Positions 4,460 to 23,250 of a stretch of DNA of 64,000 nt are shown piece by piece. The notes below the pieces were generated by a model that saw only the letters and a list, made by a program, of their open reading frames with translations, was not told the origin of the DNA and did no database searches. Each line of letters starts with the position of its first letter. Position 1 is the stretch's first letter. Both the position numbers and the translations under genes were made by a program. This DNA comes from Komagataeibacter saccharivorans (GTDB lineage: Bacteria > Pseudomonadota > Alphaproteobacteria > Acetobacterales > Acetobacteraceae): NCBI RefSeq assembly GCF_003207825.1, contig NZ_NKTY01000011.1, forward strand, positions 1 to 64,000, in the 5' to 3' direction.

Positions 4460-5626
4460 ATGACTGTGCCCCCGATTGATCCGTTTCATGCCCTGTCCAT
4501 CAGTAAGCTGGCACATGAACTGGCGGCGCAAGGGCGCAGTATCATCCATATGGAGTTCGGCCAGCCTTCCACCGGCGCGCCGAAGGCGGCGCTTGAGCGC
4601 GCGCAGCATGTGCTGGCCACCGATCCCATGGGCTATTGGGAAAGTCAGGCGCTAAGGGACAGGATCGCCCGGCACTATCACGAAACCTACGATGTTTCGG
4701 TCCAGCCTGCGCAGGTTATCCTTACATGCGGCGCGTCACCGGCACTGGTGCTTGCCCTGCTGGCCAGTTTTGTGCCCGGTGCCCGCGTGGCCATGGCGCG
4801 TCCGGGTTATGTCGCCTACCGCAATGTGGTCAGGACATTACACATGGAGCCTGTTGAAATTCCATGTGGGGAGAAAGAGCGCTTTCAGTTGACCGCCAGC
4901 GCCATCAGGGCGCTGGAGCCTGCCCCCGACGGGCTGATCCTGGCCAGCCCCGCCAATCCGACCGGCACCATCCTGTCAGCCGACGAAATGCAGGCCATTG
5001 TCGCAGTGTGCAGGGAACGCGGGATCTGCATCATATCGGATGAGATCTATCACGGCCTCAGCTTTGGCGAGCGCGCGCATAGTATCCTGGAATATGATCC
5101 CCATGCGCTGGTGGTAAACAGCTTTTCCAAATACTTCAGCATGGCGCCGTGGCGGTTGGGATGGCTTGTCGTGCCACCGGAAAAAGCGGAGATCGCTCAC
5201 GCGCGGATGGGAAACCTGTTCCTGCCGCCTGCGGCCCTCAGCCAGCATGCGGCCCTTGTCGCATTCGATGGCAGGGATGAAGTGGACGGCCATATTGAAA
5301 CCTATCGCCGTAACCGTGACCTGCTGCTACAGGCTTTGCCACAGATGGGTTTGAATCATATCGCCCCACCGGATGGCGCATTCTATATCTATGCCGATAT
5401 CCGGCACCTGACGGATGACAGCATGGCGTTCTGCAGGCGCCTGTTGATGGATACAGGTGTCACCACGGCACCCGGTATCGATTTTGATCCCGTCGACGGG
5501 AAGTTCTTCATACGCTTCAGTTTTGCGGTGAATACAGCTTTGATTGAAGAAGCAATACGGCGCATGGTCCCATGGTTTCAGGAACAGGCGGCAAGAACGC
5601 ACAAATGTAACGCATTACAATACTGA
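4460..5626 (+). CDS. PLP-dependent aminotransferase, class I/II
   Basis: Fold-type I aminotransferase, 388 aa, cytosolic. The PLP lysine is in NSFSKYFSMAPWRLGW; NPTGTILS and SDEIYHGLSF are the cofactor-binding Asn and Asp segments, and FFIRFSFA near the end supplies the carboxylate-binding Arg. Closest in appearance to AspC/MalY-like enzymes of unknown specificity. GAGG at 4451-4454 favours ATG 4460 over the in-frame GTG at 4457. It begins a tight operon with an amidase (22 bp gap) and ectoine synthase (21 bp after that). It is not EctB, which is a class III enzyme, so if the operon makes a diamino precursor it does so by another route (inference). Confidence 0.88.
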   Translation: MTVPPIDPFHALSISKLAHELAAQGRSIIHMEFGQPSTGAPKAALERAQHVLATDPMGYWESQALRDRIARHYHETYDVSVQPAQVILTCGASPALVLALLASFVPGARVAMARPGYVAYRNVVRTLHMEPVEIPCGEKERFQLTASAIRALEPAPDGLILASPANPTGTILSADEMQAIVAVCRERGICIISDEIYHGLSFGERAHSILEYDPHALVVNSFSKYFSMAPWRLGWLVVPPEKAEIAHARMGNLFLPPAALSQHAALVAFDGRDEVDGHIETYRRNRDLLLQALPQMGLNHIAPPDGAFYIYADIRHLTDDSMAFCRRLLMDTGVTTAPGIDFDPVDGKFFIRFSFAVNTALIEEAIRRMVPWFQEQAARTHKCNALQY

Positions 5627-5648
5627 CCATTCACGCCGGGGTGGAAAA

Positions 5649-7004
5649 ATGAATACCGACGTCTCGCCGTTGCATATACAGCAGGACCATGCGGAATCGC
5701 ATATATCCGCAAACGCGCCTGCACGGCTTGATCGGGCGCTGGCTGACTATGCCGCCCGTGACTGGACGGATCAGGCCATTTTCCTCAATGAACGGTTTGA
5801 AGCGGCGCGCGCGGAACTTGGGCACTGGCAGGCGTTGTCCCGGACCAGTCGGGAACTTCCCCCGCTCGCTGGCCTGACCATGACGGTCAAGGCCTGTTTC
5901 GATACCGCAGGCTGGGTCAGTAGCTGCGGATCTCGGGTCTTGCAGCACGCGAAACCGGCCATGCGGAGTGCGGCACTTGTCCATAAGCTGCGTATGGCTG
6001 GCGCGACCCTGCTGGCGCAGACCAATATGACCGAGTTCGCTTATGGTGCGCTGGGGGTCAATACCCGTTTCGGCACGCCCCGCACGCCGCTTGACCCAAC
6101 CGGGACACGGATTGCCGGGGGTTCAAGTTCAGGAGCCGCAGTCGCGGTTGCGCGCGGATACGGCGATGTGGCCGTCTGTTCCGATACCAGTGGTTCAGCC
6201 CGTATTCCCGCCGCGTTTTGTGGTGTGGTCGGGTTCAAGCCCAGCCGCGCGCGTTACGACACGCAGGGCATGCACTGGCTTTCCACCAGTTTTGACGTGC
6301 CGGGTCTTATCTGTCCCACTGTGGGGCTGTGTCGGCAGGTGGATCGTGCCATTACCGGTTGTGGGGCGGATGTCCCTTCCCCTCCCCTTGCTATCCGTCT
6401 GGCGGTTCCCGGCACATTATCCGATATGGGGCTGGATGAAGATGTGCATGCTCTGTTCAGGACCTGCCGGGATGTCCTCACGGCGGCGGGTGTAACCATT
6501 CACGAAATCCCTCTGGACAGCCTTATGGACAGTGCCCGTATTGCAGCGGAGGGCGGAATCATCGGGGCGGAAGCATACGCATTGCACCGCCATCGTCTGG
6601 CGACGGATTTTGACGGATACGATCCCGTAGTCGGTAAACGCCTGCTGGCCGGGCGGGAAAATCCTGCCTATCGCTATGTGGATGCCCTGCAGGCCCTGTC
6701 TGCCTGCCGCGACAGGTTCGACCGGGAGATAACCGGATATGACGGCTTCCTGTTGCCCACCGTTCCGATCCTGCCACCGGCTGTGGCGGAACTGCGGGAT
6801 GAGGCAACCTATCTGCGGCTTAACCGGCGCGCATTTTCATTAACCGAATTCGCCAACCGTCTGGATCTGCCCGGCATTTCCCTGCCGGTTGGCAAACTTC
6901 CCGTCGGCCTGATGCTGACGGGAATACGGGGTGGCGATGATGCCCTCCTCGCCATGGCCAGTGTACTGGAACCACTGGTCAGTAACCTTCAGCAGCCCGT
7001 GTGA
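5649..7004 (+). CDS. Amidase signature family hydrolase
   Basis: Amidase signature (AS) enzyme, 451 aa. The catalytic triad is visible: Lys in MTVKACFDTAG, cis-Ser in GGSSSGAAVAVA and the nucleophile Ser in DTSGSARIPAAFCG, followed by VVGFKPS. Such enzymes hydrolyse small amides; GatA is unlikely because no gatB or gatC is present and the C-terminal half is short. The start follows a GGGGTGG purine run just upstream. It sits between an aminotransferase and ectoine synthase. A role in opening, trimming or recycling an amide or cyclic amidine intermediate is an inference from position only. Confidence 0.88.
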   Translation: MNTDVSPLHIQQDHAESHISANAPARLDRALADYAARDWTDQAIFLNERFEAARAELGHWQALSRTSRELPPLAGLTMTVKACFDTAGWVSSCGSRVLQHAKPAMRSAALVHKLRMAGATLLAQTNMTEFAYGALGVNTRFGTPRTPLDPTGTRIAGGSSSGAAVAVARGYGDVAVCSDTSGSARIPAAFCGVVGFKPSRARYDTQGMHWLSTSFDVPGLICPTVGLCRQVDRAITGCGADVPSPPLAIRLAVPGTLSDMGLDEDVHALFRTCRDVLTAAGVTIHEIPLDSLMDSARIAAEGGIIGAEAYALHRHRLATDFDGYDPVVGKRLLAGRENPAYRYVDALQALSACRDRFDREITGYDGFLLPTVPILPPAVAELRDEATYLRLNRRAFSLTEFANRLDLPGISLPVGKLPVGLMLTGIRGGDDALLAMASVLEPLVSNLQQPV

Positions 7005-7025
7005 AATCATCATAAGGGAAAGATC

Positions 7026-7412
7026 ATGATTGTTGTTACATCCAACGAAATCGCGGGTACGGCACGGGATGCTTCGGGACCGGGATGGGAAAGCCGCCGC
7101 ATGATCGTGCGCGATGATGGCATGGGTCATTCCGTGCACGAAACGCGCGTCAAGAAGGGCGCGGAACTGCATCTGCATTACAAGAACCATTTTGAGACCA
7201 ATTATTGCATTTCCGGTGAAGGTGAGGTCGAAGATACGCAGACCGGTGAAGTTTTTCCAATCCGTCCCGGCACCATTTACGCCCTGAACAGGAACGATCC
7301 GCATATCCTGCGCGCGACAGGAAGCGATCTTCTGCTGGTCTGTGTTTTTACGCCCCCGCTTGCGGGCAATGAAGTCCATCGCGAGGATGGCAGTTACGCA
7401 CCCGTCGAATAA
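7026..7412 (+). CDS. ectC: L-ectoine synthase (EctC), solitary copy
   Basis: Cupin-fold EctC, 128 aa, the usual size. In ectoine producers it cyclises N-gamma-acetyl-diaminobutyrate to ectoine by loss of water. Residues known from studied EctC proteins occur at the same numbers: Trp21, Arg25, Thr40, Tyr52, His55, metal ligands Glu57, Tyr85 and His93, and a Glu at 116 beside the usual 115. HYKNH and the GEGEVED strand are also typical. No ectA, ectB or ectD is found anywhere in the window. Solitary ectC genes are known and are thought to use imported precursor or other substrates; the neighbouring aminotransferase and amidase make a dedicated alternative substrate plausible (inference). A purine-rich AAGGGAAAG lies just upstream. 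Confidence 0.93.
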   Translation: MIVVTSNEIAGTARDASGPGWESRRMIVRDDGMGHSVHETRVKKGAELHLHYKNHFETNYCISGEGEVEDTQTGEVFPIRPGTIYALNRNDPHILRATGSDLLLVCVFTPPLAGNEVHREDGSYAPVE

Positions 7413-13596: not shown

Positions 13597-14532
13597 CTAT
13601 GAAGCCGACAGCCCTGCGGAAAGGGTGAGCGTGCCCCCTTTTGCCAGTACACCGGCAACAAGGGCCGTCTGTCCGGTATTCCAGGTCATGTCGAGCATAC
13701 CCGGAAGAGTGCCCCCATTCCTGTCGGATGCCAGCATGTCCATTGTATAGTCGGCCAGACGGCTGTACTCCCCGGCCGTGTATTTTACAGTACCGAACCC
13801 GCCCGGACGATCATTTGGATAGAGCATGAACAGCGGGTCATTCTCATACATGGCTACGGGCGCGTAGTCGGGTTCGTACCAGTCTACCACGGCATCGTAG
13901 CGATGATCGCGACCGGACTGCATTGGCACTGTCGTCTTATTGATCGTGACGACCAGCACCGTGTTTATGCGGCTATGGCTACTTCCCATATCCAATGCCG
14001 TGTCCAGCGTGACCTTCAGCGGTACAGGCCCGGTATCACACCGTATCTGGTCGCCTGTCAGAATGGCGGTCGCGCCGCAATCCCCAAGCCGCTCCGCCAG
14101 CGCCTGTGCATCCAGATGCGTGGGTAGCACGACATGCACTGCGCCGATACGCATGCAGGCCAGTACCGCCACTATACTTTCCGCAATCAGAGGCAGGTGG
14201 ATTGCAACCCTGTCGCCGCGTTGCACGCCCTGATCCTGCAACGTGTTGGCCAGGCGACAGACCCGTTCATGCAGTTCCCGATATGACATCCGTCCGTTCG
14301 GCGTGTTACCTGCGCCGCGCCAGATTACCGCACTCCTGTCCGCATGGTCCCCCAGATGGTAATCCACGCATGAAGCGCAGATGTTCTGTATACGCTGGCC
14401 GCGCTTCGATACCGGGATAATGTGGGAAGGGGCAACGTATCCTGCCTGCCGGGGAATGTATTGCCGCGAATGAAGGGCGGACAGAATGGAAACGCTGTCA
14501 AAGGTTCTACGCATCATGGGCCTGTTTCCCAT
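13597..14532 (-). CDS. Truncated, motif-degraded acetyl-CoA synthetase-like protein
   Basis: 311 aa matching only the N-terminal half of AMP-forming acetyl-CoA synthetase (about 650 aa). MSYRELHERVCRLANTL, GDRVAIHLPLIAESIVAVLACMR (read in parts) and RIGAVHVVLP are clear. Where the ATP-binding loop TSGSTGKPKG belongs, the protein reads LYPNDRPGGFGTVK, so the glycine/serine/threonine loop is lost. It stops soon after the segment equivalent to DVGWVTGHSY (here DMTWNTGQTA). Without the second half and loop it should be unable to adenylate acetate. The frame is open throughout, so it may be a retained non-enzymatic protein rather than a fresh pseudogene. Start uncertain: ATG 14517 or 14514 are alternatives. 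Confidence 0.7.
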   Translation of the reverse strand: MGNRPMMRRTFDSVSILSALHSRQYIPRQAGYVAPSHIIPVSKRGQRIQNICASCVDYHLGDHADRSAVIWRGAGNTPNGRMSYRELHERVCRLANTLQDQGVQRGDRVAIHLPLIAESIVAVLACMRIGAVHVVLPTHLDAQALAERLGDCGATAILTGDQIRCDTGPVPLKVTLDTALDMGSSHSRINTVLVVTINKTTVPMQSGRDHRYDAVVDWYEPDYAPVAMYENDPLFMLYPNDRPGGFGTVKYTAGEYSRLADYTMDMLASDRNGGTLPGMLDMTWNTGQTALVAGVLAKGGTLTLSAGLSAS

Positions 14533-15250
14533 CGTTCAGCCGCTCCGGTCTTTATGACTTGCGGTGCAGCAGTATATGAAAGAGGTGAATCCGGGCGTTT
14601 TACGCGGTAAAAAACGGTGAGGATAATACCCTCACCCGGCCGAAAACGTGCCTGATATTTAGTCCGCCCCGTATGGGATGCCCTTGCCCTGAAATCACCA
14701 TGCGTGTTGGCCGGGATGCGGCGAAGTGGTGGCGTGGCGGTGCATGCGCCTGATTGTGGCATTTCATTTGTGCTGCTCTTGTTTGTTTTTGTTGCTACGG
14801 ACTGTGGCAAATCCGGCTGACGGACGGAAGATGCTTTGCCGTTTAAAGTGGTGAAAGCAAAAACAGTAATTGCAAAGATTGCAAATATGTATAATCACGG
14901 AACCGTGTATATAACATCAACGAAATTTTGTTGGAATTATACAGAACAGATCAGAACATATATTATATAACTTCCCGGCGTTACGTGGACCCTTATCAAT
15001 TGCCTATAAAGCATATTTGAGGAAAATCCTGTCAGTTCCATATTGCACAACTATGTATTTAAATATATTAATTTCTATAATTAAATTAAAAATACAAATA
15101 GAAACAGTATTCAGGAAGATGTACCGGTCTGCCTGTTACATATCCGCCATTCATACATCTTGCAGTTGACTTTTTCTGAAGCATGCAAATATGACCGCAA
15201 TCCATCGTTATCCATTATAGTATGAGTCTGATCGCGTGGGTTATAAGAAG
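14533..15250. other. AT-rich intergenic region, no gene seen
   Basis: About 700 bp. The first 300 bp have ordinary composition, then from about 14840 the sequence becomes strongly AT-rich with long A/T runs, unlike the flanking genes. Open frames here read as unpatterned peptides and I do not support any as genes. It marks the left edge of the mobile region. Confidence 0.6.
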
Positions 15251-15359
15251 CTGTTTGAAAAACTGTCTGGAAACATCCAGAAATCATAAAGAAGTTTTTG
15301 GTGAAGCTTTTTTCAAAAATCTTCGTAAGGCGACACCCAAAAAAGTTTCCTATTTTTAT
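15251..15359. repeat. Dispersed hairpin repeat, copy 1
   Basis: Shares an ordered series of words with 19390-19509 in the same orientation: CTGTTTG, CTGTCTGGAAA, CCAGAAA, ATAA, GAAG, GCACCC/ACACCC AAAAA and TTTCC. Its right half is an imperfect hairpin: AAGTTTTTGGTGAAGCTTTTTT opposite AAAAATCTTC...ACCCAAAAAAGTTT (15293-15347). Lies 28 bp outside the left end of the IS pair. Probably a non-coding mobile or regulatory repeat family. Confidence 0.6.
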
Positions 15360-15387
15360 CAAATACTTATTTTCAAAAAATCTCTAA

Positions 15388-16225
15388 GAGCCTGATTCGA
15401 AAGTTTTTCAGCACTGACAATGCCTTGCGGTTCTGCGGGTCAGCATGCGGATTGAGGCGATCAAAGTCCACGCTGTTGACGAGGCTATGGACTGTTCCCA
15501 GTCTTTGGCGAGCCGCCTGCAGCGACCGAGCCAGGCGAATGTTTGTTCGACCACCCGGCGGCGAGGCAGGATTTCAAGGCCCCTGGCTGTGTCTGATCGC
15601 CTGATGATTTCGACCGTCCATTTTCCCATGCTGGCGAGCGCGGATCGCAGTTTATTACCGGCATAGCCGCCATCGGCGAAGATGTGGCGAAGCCATGGAA
15701 AGTGTTTGCGTATTGCCGCCAGGACATCGACAGCCCCGTCACGATCCTGAATGTCAGCGGCATGAACAAGGAGGAAGATCAGGAAGCCGCAGGTATCCGT
15801 CAGAATATGGCGCTTGCGACCTTTGACCTTCTTTCCAGCGTCATAACCGGAAATTCCCCCACTTTCCGTGGTTTTCACCGACTGGCTATCAATCACGCCC
15901 GCGCTCGGGGAGGTCTCACGCCCTTCGATCTCCCGCAGGTTTATGACCAGTACCGTGTTCATCGCTTCGAACAGTCCGGCATCACGCCATGCATAAAAGT
16001 AGCGCCTGACGGTCGAGACCGGTGGAAAGCATTTCGGCAGCAGACGCCACGCACACCCTCCCGAGGCAATATAGAGTATCGCGTTTACAACCTCGCGCAT
16101 ATCCGCCGTGCGAGGCCGTCCGCCCCGTTTCGCCGGGGGCACGAACGGCATAATCAAAGCCCACTCGGCATCCGTCATATCCGATGGATATCGCAATCCC
16201 TCCCGGCTATGTTCGTGTCAGGCAA
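15388..16225 (-). mobile_element. IS5-family insertion sequence, near-complete
   Basis: About 838 bp containing one intact transposase. The left terminus is GAGCCTGATTCGAAA. A weaker match is found at the other side: read inward from 16225, TTGCCTGACACGAAC agrees with the left end at 10 of 15 bases. No TAA follows it, so the right end is diverged or has been rearranged. Confidence 0.6.
15408..16196 (-). CDS. IS5-family transposase (IS1031/IS427-like), intact
   Basis: Full-length DDE transposase, 262 aa. It opens MRYPSDMTDAEWALIMPF, with the catalytic residues visible as Asp in GVIDSQSVKTT, Asp in FADGGYAGNK and Glu in RRVVEQTFAWLGR. A GYDAGKKVKGRKRHI stretch follows the first Asp, as usual in this group. 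Encoded in a single frame without the internal stop seen in the copy at 17723-18365. If expressed it could act on both its own ends and the related right end at 18374. Confidence 0.92.
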   Translation of the reverse strand: MRYPSDMTDAEWALIMPFVPPAKRGGRPRTADMREVVNAILYIASGGCAWRLLPKCFPPVSTVRRYFYAWRDAGLFEAMNTVLVINLREIEGRETSPSAGVIDSQSVKTTESGGISGYDAGKKVKGRKRHILTDTCGFLIFLLVHAADIQDRDGAVDVLAAIRKHFPWLRHIFADGGYAGNKLRSALASMGKWTVEIIRRSDTARGLEILPRRRVVEQTFAWLGRCRRLAKDWEQSIASSTAWTLIASIRMLTRRTARHCQC

Positions 16226-21066: not shown

Positions 21067-21544
21067 GGGAATGATGGTGGTGTTCATCCCCGTGGGCATG
21101 GCCTGCCCCGCGTCCGGCATAGGCCCCGCTTTCAGGGTCGAATGCCGCCCGCACGTTATGGACGTGACCACCAAGACCCCGGACCATATCGGCAATCACA
21201 TGGTCATGGCGCACAAGGATACGCTGTCCCCCGATCGCTGCGGGCAGATGCCGGTTGCCCAGATGCCATGCCAGCCGCAACAGGTGCAGCGGGTCGTGGG
21301 CCGTGACCGCCATCAGGTCTTCGGCCATGGCTTCGACCCGTATGATACGGCCATCTTCCAGCCGCAGGCCGTCGCCATCGTGCAGAAGCCGGGCGTGTTC
21401 CAGTTCCAGCAGCACCTTTGCGCCTGAACGCAGGGTCAGCACCATGCGGCGGCGGTGGCGGCCTTCGTAATCAGCAGCGAATATGTCGGCCGCATCGGCT
21501 TCATTCCAGCTTCCCGCTGGCAGGATTTCGGCAACACGGGTCAT
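21059..21544 (-). CDS. ureE: Urease accessory nickel chaperone UreE
   Basis: 161 aa. The N-terminal domain has GRHRRRMVLTLRSGAKVLLEL; the metal-binding C-terminal domain has LAWHLGNRHLPAAI and the conserved His in LVRHDHVIADM. The protein ends with a His-rich tail ([13 protein letters not shown]) that would hold extra nickel. Start and the ureC stop share one base (TGATG), so translation is coupled. Confidence 0.95.
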   Translation of the reverse strand: MTRVAEILPAGSWNEADAADIFAADYEGRHRRRMVLTLRSGAKVLLELEHARLLHDGDGLRLEDGRIIRVEAMAEDLMAVTAHDPLHLLRLAWHLGNRHLPAAIGGQRILVRHDHVIADMVRGLGGHVHNVRAAFDPESGAYAGRGAGHAHGDEHHHHSHD

Positions 21545-23250
21545 CAGAACAGGAAATACCTCTGGGCCATGGGCAGGATGTCGGCAGGTTCACACGTCAG
21601 CAGCACGCCATCGGCCCGTACTTCATACGTTTCGGGATCGACCTCGATATGCGGCATGACGTCGTTATGGATCATGCTGCGCTTGCCAATGCCGCCACGC
21701 GTGTCGGATACGGCGGAAAGGCTTTTACGCAGGCCGAGTTTTCGGCCGATATCATCCTCAAGGGCCGCTTTTGACACGAATGTCAGGCTTGTATGGGTCA
21801 GTGCGCCGCCATAGCCGCCAAACATCATGCGGCCATGCACGGGCTGCGGCGTGGGGATGGAGGCGTTCGGGTCGCCCATCATGGCATAGGCGATGGCCCC
21901 ACCCTTGATGACAAGATCGGGCTTCACGCCAAAGAAGGCAGGCTCCCACAATACAAGATCGGCCAGTTTGCCCACCGCGATGGACCCGACCTCGTGCGAC
22001 AGGCCATGGGCGATGGCGGGGTTGATGGTGTATTTGGCGATATAGCGTTTGACGCGGTTGTTGTCCGCCGCGCCATCGCCCGGCAGTGCGCCGCGCTGGC
22101 TTTTCATCTTGTGGGCGGTCTGCCACGTACGCAGCGGCACTTCGCCTACCCGGCCCATGGCCTGACTGTCGGATGACATCATCGACAGCACGCCCATGTC
22201 GTGGAAAATGTCCTCCGCCGCGATGGTCTCGCGCCGGATGCGGCTTTCGGCAAACGCAATATCCTCCGGCACCCTGGGGTCAAGGTGGTGGCAGACCATG
22301 AGCATGTCCAGGTGCTCATCCAGCGTATTGCGCGTATAGGGCCGCGTGGGATTGGTGGAAGACGGCAGCACGTTGGGCAGCCCGGCCACGCGGATGATGT
22401 CCGGCGCGTGGCCGCCGCCCGCGCCTTCGGTATGGAAGGCGTGGATGGTGCGGCCCTGAAAGGCTGCAATCGTATCCTCCACAAAGCCGCTTTCGTTCAG
22501 CGTGTCGGTATGGATCATGACCTGTACATCCATCTGGTCGGCCACACCCAGACAGCAGTCGATGGCCGCAGGCGTCGACCCCCAGTCTTCATGCAGTTTC
22601 AGGCAACACGCTCCGGCGCGGACCATTTCCTCCAGCCCTTCGGGGCGTGAGGCATTGCCCTTGCCGGCAAAGGCCAGATTGACGGGAAACGCATCCGCCG
22701 CCTGCAGCATGCGGGCCAGATGCCATGGTCCCGGCGTGCAGGTGGTGGCCGCCGTGCCCGTGGCCGGTCCCGTGCCGCCGCCAAGCATGGTGGTGATGCC
22801 CGATGCCAGCGCTTCCTCGATCTGCTGGGGGCAGATGAAATGGATGTGGCTGTCCATGCCGCCTGCCGTCAGGATTTTGCCTTCCCCCGCGATGATTTCC
22901 GTCCCCGGCCCGATGATGATGTCAACGCCGGGCTGGATATCGGGATTCCCCGCCTTGCCGATGCCTGCGATCCGTCCGTCGCGCAGCGCCACATCCGCCT
23001 TGACGATGCCCCAGTGGTCGATGATCAGCGCGTTGGTGATGACCGTATCCGCCGCCCCCTGCGCGCGGGTGGCCTGTGACTGGCCCATGCCATCACGGAT
23101 GGTCTTGCCGCCGCCAAAGCGGACTTCCTCGCCATAGATGGTGAAGTCCTTCTCCACCTCCACCAGCAGGTTCGTATCCGCCAGCCGTACGCGGTCGCCG
23201 GTGGTGGGACCGAACTGGCCCGCGTAATCATGCCGCGTAATCCGGGTCAT
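21544..23250 (-). CDS. ureC: Urease alpha (catalytic) subunit
   Basis: 568 aa nickel amidohydrolase that splits urea into ammonia and carbamate. [16 protein letters not shown] gives the first His pair; the carbamylated Lys is in [20 protein letters not shown] and [16 protein letters not shown] carry the further ligands and catalytic residues, and MVCHHLDP the flap His region. All expected residues appear intact. ATG overlaps the ureB stop by four bases (23247-23250). Confidence 0.98.

Follow-up and report, generated by a model that had tools for sequence, protein, structure and literature searches.

Ectoine synthase (EctC) normally catalyzes ring closure with loss of water, and, run in reverse, the reaction turns a cyclic amidine into an open-chain amide. 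As described in the accessible sections of the relevant literature, ectoine breakdown proceeds through EutD followed by EutE; certain hosts use Ehu importers, and a MocR protein regulates the pathway by sensing the amine-bearing compound formed on ring opening. EnuR, the MocR regulator known from ectoine utilization, responds to such a compound (PMC8739950). Orphan (solitary) EctC proteins made up 145 of the 582 EctC-type proteins in a 2018 survey, where the sections available to us call their function unresolved (PMC5924519), as do those of a 2019 paper (PMC6344544). Here we describe an orphan EctC from Komagataeibacter saccharivorans, encoded just downstream of an amidase-signature hydrolase in a 64,000-nucleotide stretch (positions 1 to 64,000 of contig NZ_NKTY01000011.1; hereafter the window). 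Judged from gene neighborhoods, the amidase–EctC pair is the real conserved unit, and we see about an even chance that it constitutes a two-step breakdown module for an imported cyclic amidine or a closely related cyclic amino acid.

The locus comprises the following features:

4460..5626, + strand: class I/II aminotransferase, pyridoxal phosphate (PLP)-dependent, 388 amino acids (aa); PF00155 (Aminotran_1_2), 176.3 bits
5649..7004, + strand: amidase-signature hydrolase, 451 aa; PF01425 (Amidase), 219.1 bits
7026..7412, + strand: EctC homolog, a cupin of the ectoine synthase family with Asn59, 128 aa; PF06339 (Ectoine_synth), 183.8 bits
7200..7202, + strand: codon of Asn59 in EctC, its position read from the sequence

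A preliminary description of this stretch had placed these three genes correctly: all lie on the + strand, separated by 22 and 21 bp, and all three Pfam matches are far above cut-off (for EctC, 183.8 against 27). It is from the spacing alone that we infer a three-gene operon. EctC also exceeds the cut-off of the NCBIfam ectoine synthase model PRK13290 (178.7 against 128) and aligns with solved ectoine synthases at E values of 1.9e-34 to 3.1e-33; the eight best PDB matches to its predicted structure (mean predicted local distance difference test score, pLDDT, 93.3) are all crystal structures of ectoine synthase, 5bxx first among them. The residues W21, R25, T40, Y52, H55, E57, Y85, and H93 are all kept, as previously listed, and the protein further has S23, H38, C106, F108, E116, and H118, with His38 shared by 97% of the ectB-linked set described below. 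The host genome, a 3.35-Mb draft in 107 contigs with an estimated completeness of 100%, holds a single EctC copy. A whole-genome profile search returned 0 matches to the ectA model TIGR02406 and three to the ectB model TIGR02407, none above cut-off (best 229.8 against 552.2). The earlier description of an EctC that has an intact active site and lacks ectA and ectB is right. In the amidase, Lys81, Ser159, and Ser183 do not vary across the 11 sequences aligned, which include that of the window, and we take them to be the Lys-Ser-Ser catalytic triad of the family. Its three closest solved structures are a "probable amidase," biuret hydrolase, and allophanate hydrolase, and the NCBIfam models for AtzE and allophanate hydrolase match it below their curated cut-offs.

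The pairing of amidase and EctC recurs in several other bacterial genera. Among the best 80 of 122 relatives found in a first scan with the window EctC, an amidase homolog lies directly upstream of EctC at 12 loci, from Shinella (L012), Brucella (L013 and L033), Paracoccus (L020), Pseudomonas (L028), and Burkholderia (L016–L019 and L021–L023). At Brucella cytisi L033:5957-8383, matches to GntR, amidase, and EctC are each divided between two frames, which may reflect decay or misassembly. The pair is likewise carried by annotated plasmids of Rhizobium (L104, L106) and Caballeronia (L103) and by the unannotated plasmid loci L101 and L102. Broader draws, which count the own or center genome and include fragments, gave the following frequencies of genomes with an EctC match: 59 of 398 across the phylum, 43 of 297 within the family of Shinella L012, 27 of 398 within the genus of L028, and 28 of 349 within the family of L018; EctC neighbors were examined at the loci returned or fetched from these draws.

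After hits of 280 bp or less, sequences shorter than 115 residues, and sequences with internal stops had been dropped, 243 EctC hits (three copies of the own locus excluded) reduced to 199 distinct sequences, and a maximum-likelihood tree was built from 198 of them. One group, clade A (34 rows, support 99/92), unites the window EctC with 29 of the 30 amidase-labeled rows. The 120 ectB-linked rows fall outside it, and their split from the rest is weak (51/82). A second orphan group, clade B, holds 37 rows (100/94), or 38 if the long-branched L094 is included (98/34). We examined architecture at 30 long clade A loci, of which 24 have the amidase directly upstream of EctC; the loci are not all independent, since nine of the 30 are Burkholderia-type near relatives and the two Shinella loci L014 and L100 share one type. 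Wherever the gap between amidase and EctC was measured (16 of 16 loci) it lies between −4 and 61 bp.

The same does not hold for the aminotransferase, which the preliminary description had counted as part of the pathway. Some related aminotransferase occurs in all 200 genomes searched from the host family, and orthologs at 62–86% identity over most of the length occur in ten of these besides the own genome (an eleventh match, in G117, reaches 70% over residues 226–379 only). By comparison of genome labels, EctC is absent from the nine of these ten genomes that the EctC searches covered, the tenth, G1630, lying outside them, and the flanks of the orthologs are unlike the window beyond the gene itself. 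A sister species, G160, has a GntR–amidase–EctC cluster whose EctC and amidase are 96% and 76% identical to those of the window, with no aminotransferase match in its 19 kb. No ortholog of the window aminotransferase was found at the other EctC loci tested, where the sole match (L013) is 23% identical, about 5 kb away, and on the opposite strand. Because G160 has the pair without the aminotransferase and relatives have the ortholog without EctC, the aminotransferase is probably a bystander, and we rejected it as a member of the module. The three-gene linkage proposed earlier thus survives as far as the amidase–EctC pair, widely conserved as it is. These results bear equally on the earlier view that aminotransferase, amidase, and EctC jointly build a new cyclic amidine. 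Such a synthesis would fit the short spacers on one strand, and in Rhizobium L106 an aminotransferase of another class (class V) lies about 2.4 kb downstream of EctC; given the want of a conserved partner and the close orthologs without EctC, we consider it highly improbable.

What accompanies the pair in other hosts points to uptake. An importer-type solute-binding protein lies in the cluster at 23 of the 30 long clade A loci, in three arrangements. The first, (i), combines an SBP_bac_3 protein, a fused permease–ATPase, amidase, EctC, and a GntR/FCD regulator, often with a DUF1989 protein (beside 12 of the 30 loci). The second, (ii), has a MocR regulator, EhuBCDA, amidase, and EctC, followed by a flavodoxin-fold reductase or by a DUF2817 protein and a glyoxalase-like protein. 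In the third, (iii), a Liv-type binding protein stands with amidase and EctC, joined at some loci by MocR, DUF2817, the glyoxalase-like protein, or the reductase. The binding proteins of (i) and (ii) are both SBP_bac_3, such that these two arrangements are distinct without being unrelated. EhuB (227.4/190.9), EhuC (235.1/196.95), and EhuD (209.2/205.2) of Rhizobium bangladeshense L104 all exceed their NCBIfam cut-offs, as does EhuB of Pseudomonas L028. The lysine motif, which we presume to bind PLP, is kept in all four MocR regulators examined, and the linked DUF2817 protein is AstE/AspA-like, as identified by homology to L103.

It is the importer binding proteins, the GntR/FCD or MocR regulators, and the further hydrolase-like proteins that lead us to favor breakdown over synthesis; the direction of the reaction, its substrate, and its products are what we infer from them. 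In hosts other than this strain, an ATP-binding cassette (ABC) importer would bring the compound into the cell, and a GntR/FCD or MocR regulator would control the operon. The EctC homolog would then run hydrolytically, hydrating the C=N bond of the ring and converting the ring to a linear amide, which the amidase would cleave to a diamino acid and a carboxylic acid (or a carbamate, hence CO2 and ammonia). In this strain the upstream aminotransferase may act on the amine product, although it is more likely merely upstream. Hydrolysis by this fold has precedent, as the EctC of Halomonas elongata is reported, in the available sections of two papers, to hydrolyze cyclic analogs with smaller or larger rings (PMC6344544, PMC5924519).

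The preliminary description had also raised salvage of an imported precursor. In one form of such a salvage, EctC would close the ring of an N-acyl diamino acid to yield protective ectoine or an analog, with the amidase trimming the precursor or acting separately. The import half of this proposal gains support from the binding proteins; the synthetic half, and with it any biosynthetic route to a cyclic amidine, is less likely, since amidases, GntR/MocR regulators, and the further hydrolase-like proteins suit breakdown better. The substrate-contact residues are kept, as salvage synthesis would require, and the accessible sections of one review report that the solitary EctC of Pseudomonas syringae formed ectoine in a Halomonas elongata ectC mutant and that plant leaves seemingly supplied precursor to P. 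syringae (PMC5924519). The same review terms the P. syringae data not yet conclusive, however, and Asn59 occurs in none of 120 ectB-linked EctCs. On balance we judge salvage synthesis unlikely.

Residue 59 separates the groups. All 34 clade A sequences, including the five without an amidase, have Asn here, all 120 ectB-linked EctCs have Val, and 37 of 37 clade B sequences have Cys; of seven ungrouped rows, six have Val and one Cys. Almost all of the remaining ligand and metal residues are conserved in clade A. Position 59 lies two residues after the metal ligand Glu57 on one shared predicted strand, and strand geometry makes it probable that the Asn side chain points inward, like that of Glu57. 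Two papers on ectoine synthase structure contain no mention of position 59. With the carboxylate and amine contacts constant, a substitution this close to a metal ligand suggests a substrate that shares the amino acid part of ectoine but bears another group on its amidine carbon.

A polar group at that carbon is conceivable, in which case EctC might take a cyclic amino acid of the guanidine or urea type as its substrate and the amidase might be a ureido hydrolase of the biuret or allophanate hydrolase kind. The replacement of Val by a polar Asn59 would accord with this, as would the amidase's solved relatives and its AtzE and allophanate hydrolase matches. DUF1989, beside 12 of the 30 long loci, is also the domain of the urea-amidolyase-associated proteins UAAP1 and UAAP2, which we take to be carboxyguanidine deiminases. 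Yet every such model match falls below its curated cut-off. The MocR-type and Shinella clusters compared have no DUF1989 protein, nor does the window neighborhood, and DUF1989 is a common family, with at least one member in 8 of 8 genomes searched; the single copy in the own genome lies on a different contig. Together these considerations make a guanidine or urea substrate quite unlikely in our estimation.

Several observations weigh against breakdown of an imported compound by amidase and EctC. Five of the 34 clade A rows have no amidase, and neither do six of the long loci (L283, L014, L100, L015, L092, and L093). L283 lacks it even though a MocR gene and a binding protein adjoin EctC, and L015 instead has EctC next to a putative-cyclase protein (PF04199) together with one of flavodoxin fold. 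Conversely, L183, an ungrouped distant EctC with Val59 from a genome that additionally carries an ectAB-linked EctC, has a distant amidase (28% identity) upstream. In arrangement (iii) only a binding protein was seen beside the pair, without a transporter, and it could be a sensor instead of an importer part. The EhuA of L104 falls slightly under its cut-off (328.4/345.4), and the best NCBIfam model for its MocR protein, EhuR, is likewise under cut-off (367/480). The binding protein of Shinella L012, which represents the commonest arrangement, was rejected as EhuB (46.6 against 190.9), and two scanned DUF1989 proteins were rejected as UAAP1 or UAAP2, being far below the cut-offs of TIGR03425 and TIGR03424. 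A purely catabolic role sits uneasily with the major facilitator superfamily (MFS) transporter gene found beyond DUF1989 in six Burkholderia loci and with the class V aminotransferase of L106. In the window and in G160 no importer adjoins the pair, and the GntR and importer query proteins have no match inside the 64-kb window. Known EctCs, finally, hardly hydrolyze ectoine itself according to the available sections of two reports (PMC6344544, PMC5924519); therefore either the substrate is different or the amidase must pull the reaction.

The missing regulator and importer would also be expected if the locus were a horizontally acquired fragment with no function in this strain. In favor of this, only 2 of 19 genomes of the genus have EctC; in the host family it is present in 5 of 150, the own genome counted in both. 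But the three frames are open, the catalytic residues are intact, and identity to G160 is higher for EctC than for the amidase, EctC thus being the more strictly conserved. We therefore find a functionless fragment improbable. Parts of the window between 9587 and 20469 are 98.2% identical to a 42.6-kb plasmid of Komagataeibacter saccharivorans, in two pieces that jointly make up 32% of the 24.9-kb query, and the neighborhood of the pair may be plasmid-borne or may have been exchanged with a plasmid. G+C content drops to 42% at window positions 14501-15500, the preceding intervals having 50–63%, and a urease alpha subunit gene lies at 21544-23250, about 14 kb from the pair.

Clade B offers a different picture. 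In 8 of its 22 long loci (L264, L288–L292, L294, and L295, drawn from the L028 genus and the L018 and L012 families) EctC belongs to an operon with an adenosine monophosphate (AMP) ligase, an unknown 340-aa protein, an acyl-CoA dehydrogenase-like protein, and an MFS transporter, the protein families having been assigned from L290; two further long loci have the MFS gene without the rest. This operon looks like synthesis with export. The remaining clade B loci are varied. At L259:5558-8394 a clade B EctC directly precedes a binding protein and a fused permease–ATPase of the arrangement (i) type. Because of this variety and of L259, the contrast between clades A and B is a tendency, not a rule. 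Other EctC loci show further diversity: at L107:8001-16178, on a Rhizobium gallicum plasmid, EctC directly precedes a type I polyketide synthase gene; at L105:6089-7990 a Mesorhizobium sp. AR07 gene annotated ectB reaches 1902 bp, which might reflect a fusion of ectA and ectB; and at L115:954-1890 two different tandem EctC copies follow ectB, with a third EctC elsewhere in genome G368.

As a broader and more tentative proposal, one we hold to be possible though short of probable, the EctCs of clade A represent the ectoine synthase fold reversed in nature, serving as catabolic cyclic-amidine (or cyclic-guanidine) hydrolases that, with a dedicated amidase, form an alternative to EutD/EutE, their natural-product substrate coming perhaps from operons of the clade B type. 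No link of EctC to an amidase or to a cyclic amidine was described among the matches listed in the open-licence literature. That this orphan EctC travels with an amidase, usually near nutrient-import genes, suggests that the amidase-paired enzyme helps bacteria degrade an ectoine-like compound and does not make ectoine. The records of L100, L103, L104, and L106 name the gene "ectoine synthase," a label that on such genes predicts ectoine production that probably does not occur. The conserved amidase partner, the importer-bearing clusters, and one diagnostic residue make the function of orphan EctCs directly testable.

Set beside described systems, the window EctC resembles ectoine synthase (EC 4.2.1.108; PF06339) in fold, family, the metal residues Glu57, Tyr85, and His93, and the substrate residues; it differs in lacking ectA and ectB, in falling in a separate clade, in having Asn59 instead of Val, and in its amidase partner. 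It belongs to the set of orphan EctCs described by Czech et al. (2018, 2019; PMC5924519, PMC6344544). The available sections of those papers do not name amidase, importer, or regulator partners (in PMC5924519 the word "amidase" has 0 occurrences), whereas here most orphans fall into two clades with differing neighbors. Clade B, not clade A, corresponds to the "Ectoine-like 1" system of Pseudomonas as presented in the accessible sections of its report (eLife 2021, PMC8719888), which shares with the present locus an orphan EctC in a conserved operon. Among clade A clusters, those of Rhizobium and Pseudomonas come closest to the ectoine catabolic enuR-ehuABCD-eutABCDE (doeAB) system. In L104 and L106, the genes listed up to 8 kb from EctC include no eutD or eutE, although the PLSDB gene tables are incomplete there and the genomes were not searched. 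The two systems share a MocR regulator, an Ehu-type importer, and a putative logic of ring opening followed by amide cutting, in which EctC and the amidase may occupy the place of EutD (ectoine hydrolase) and EutE (deacetylase).

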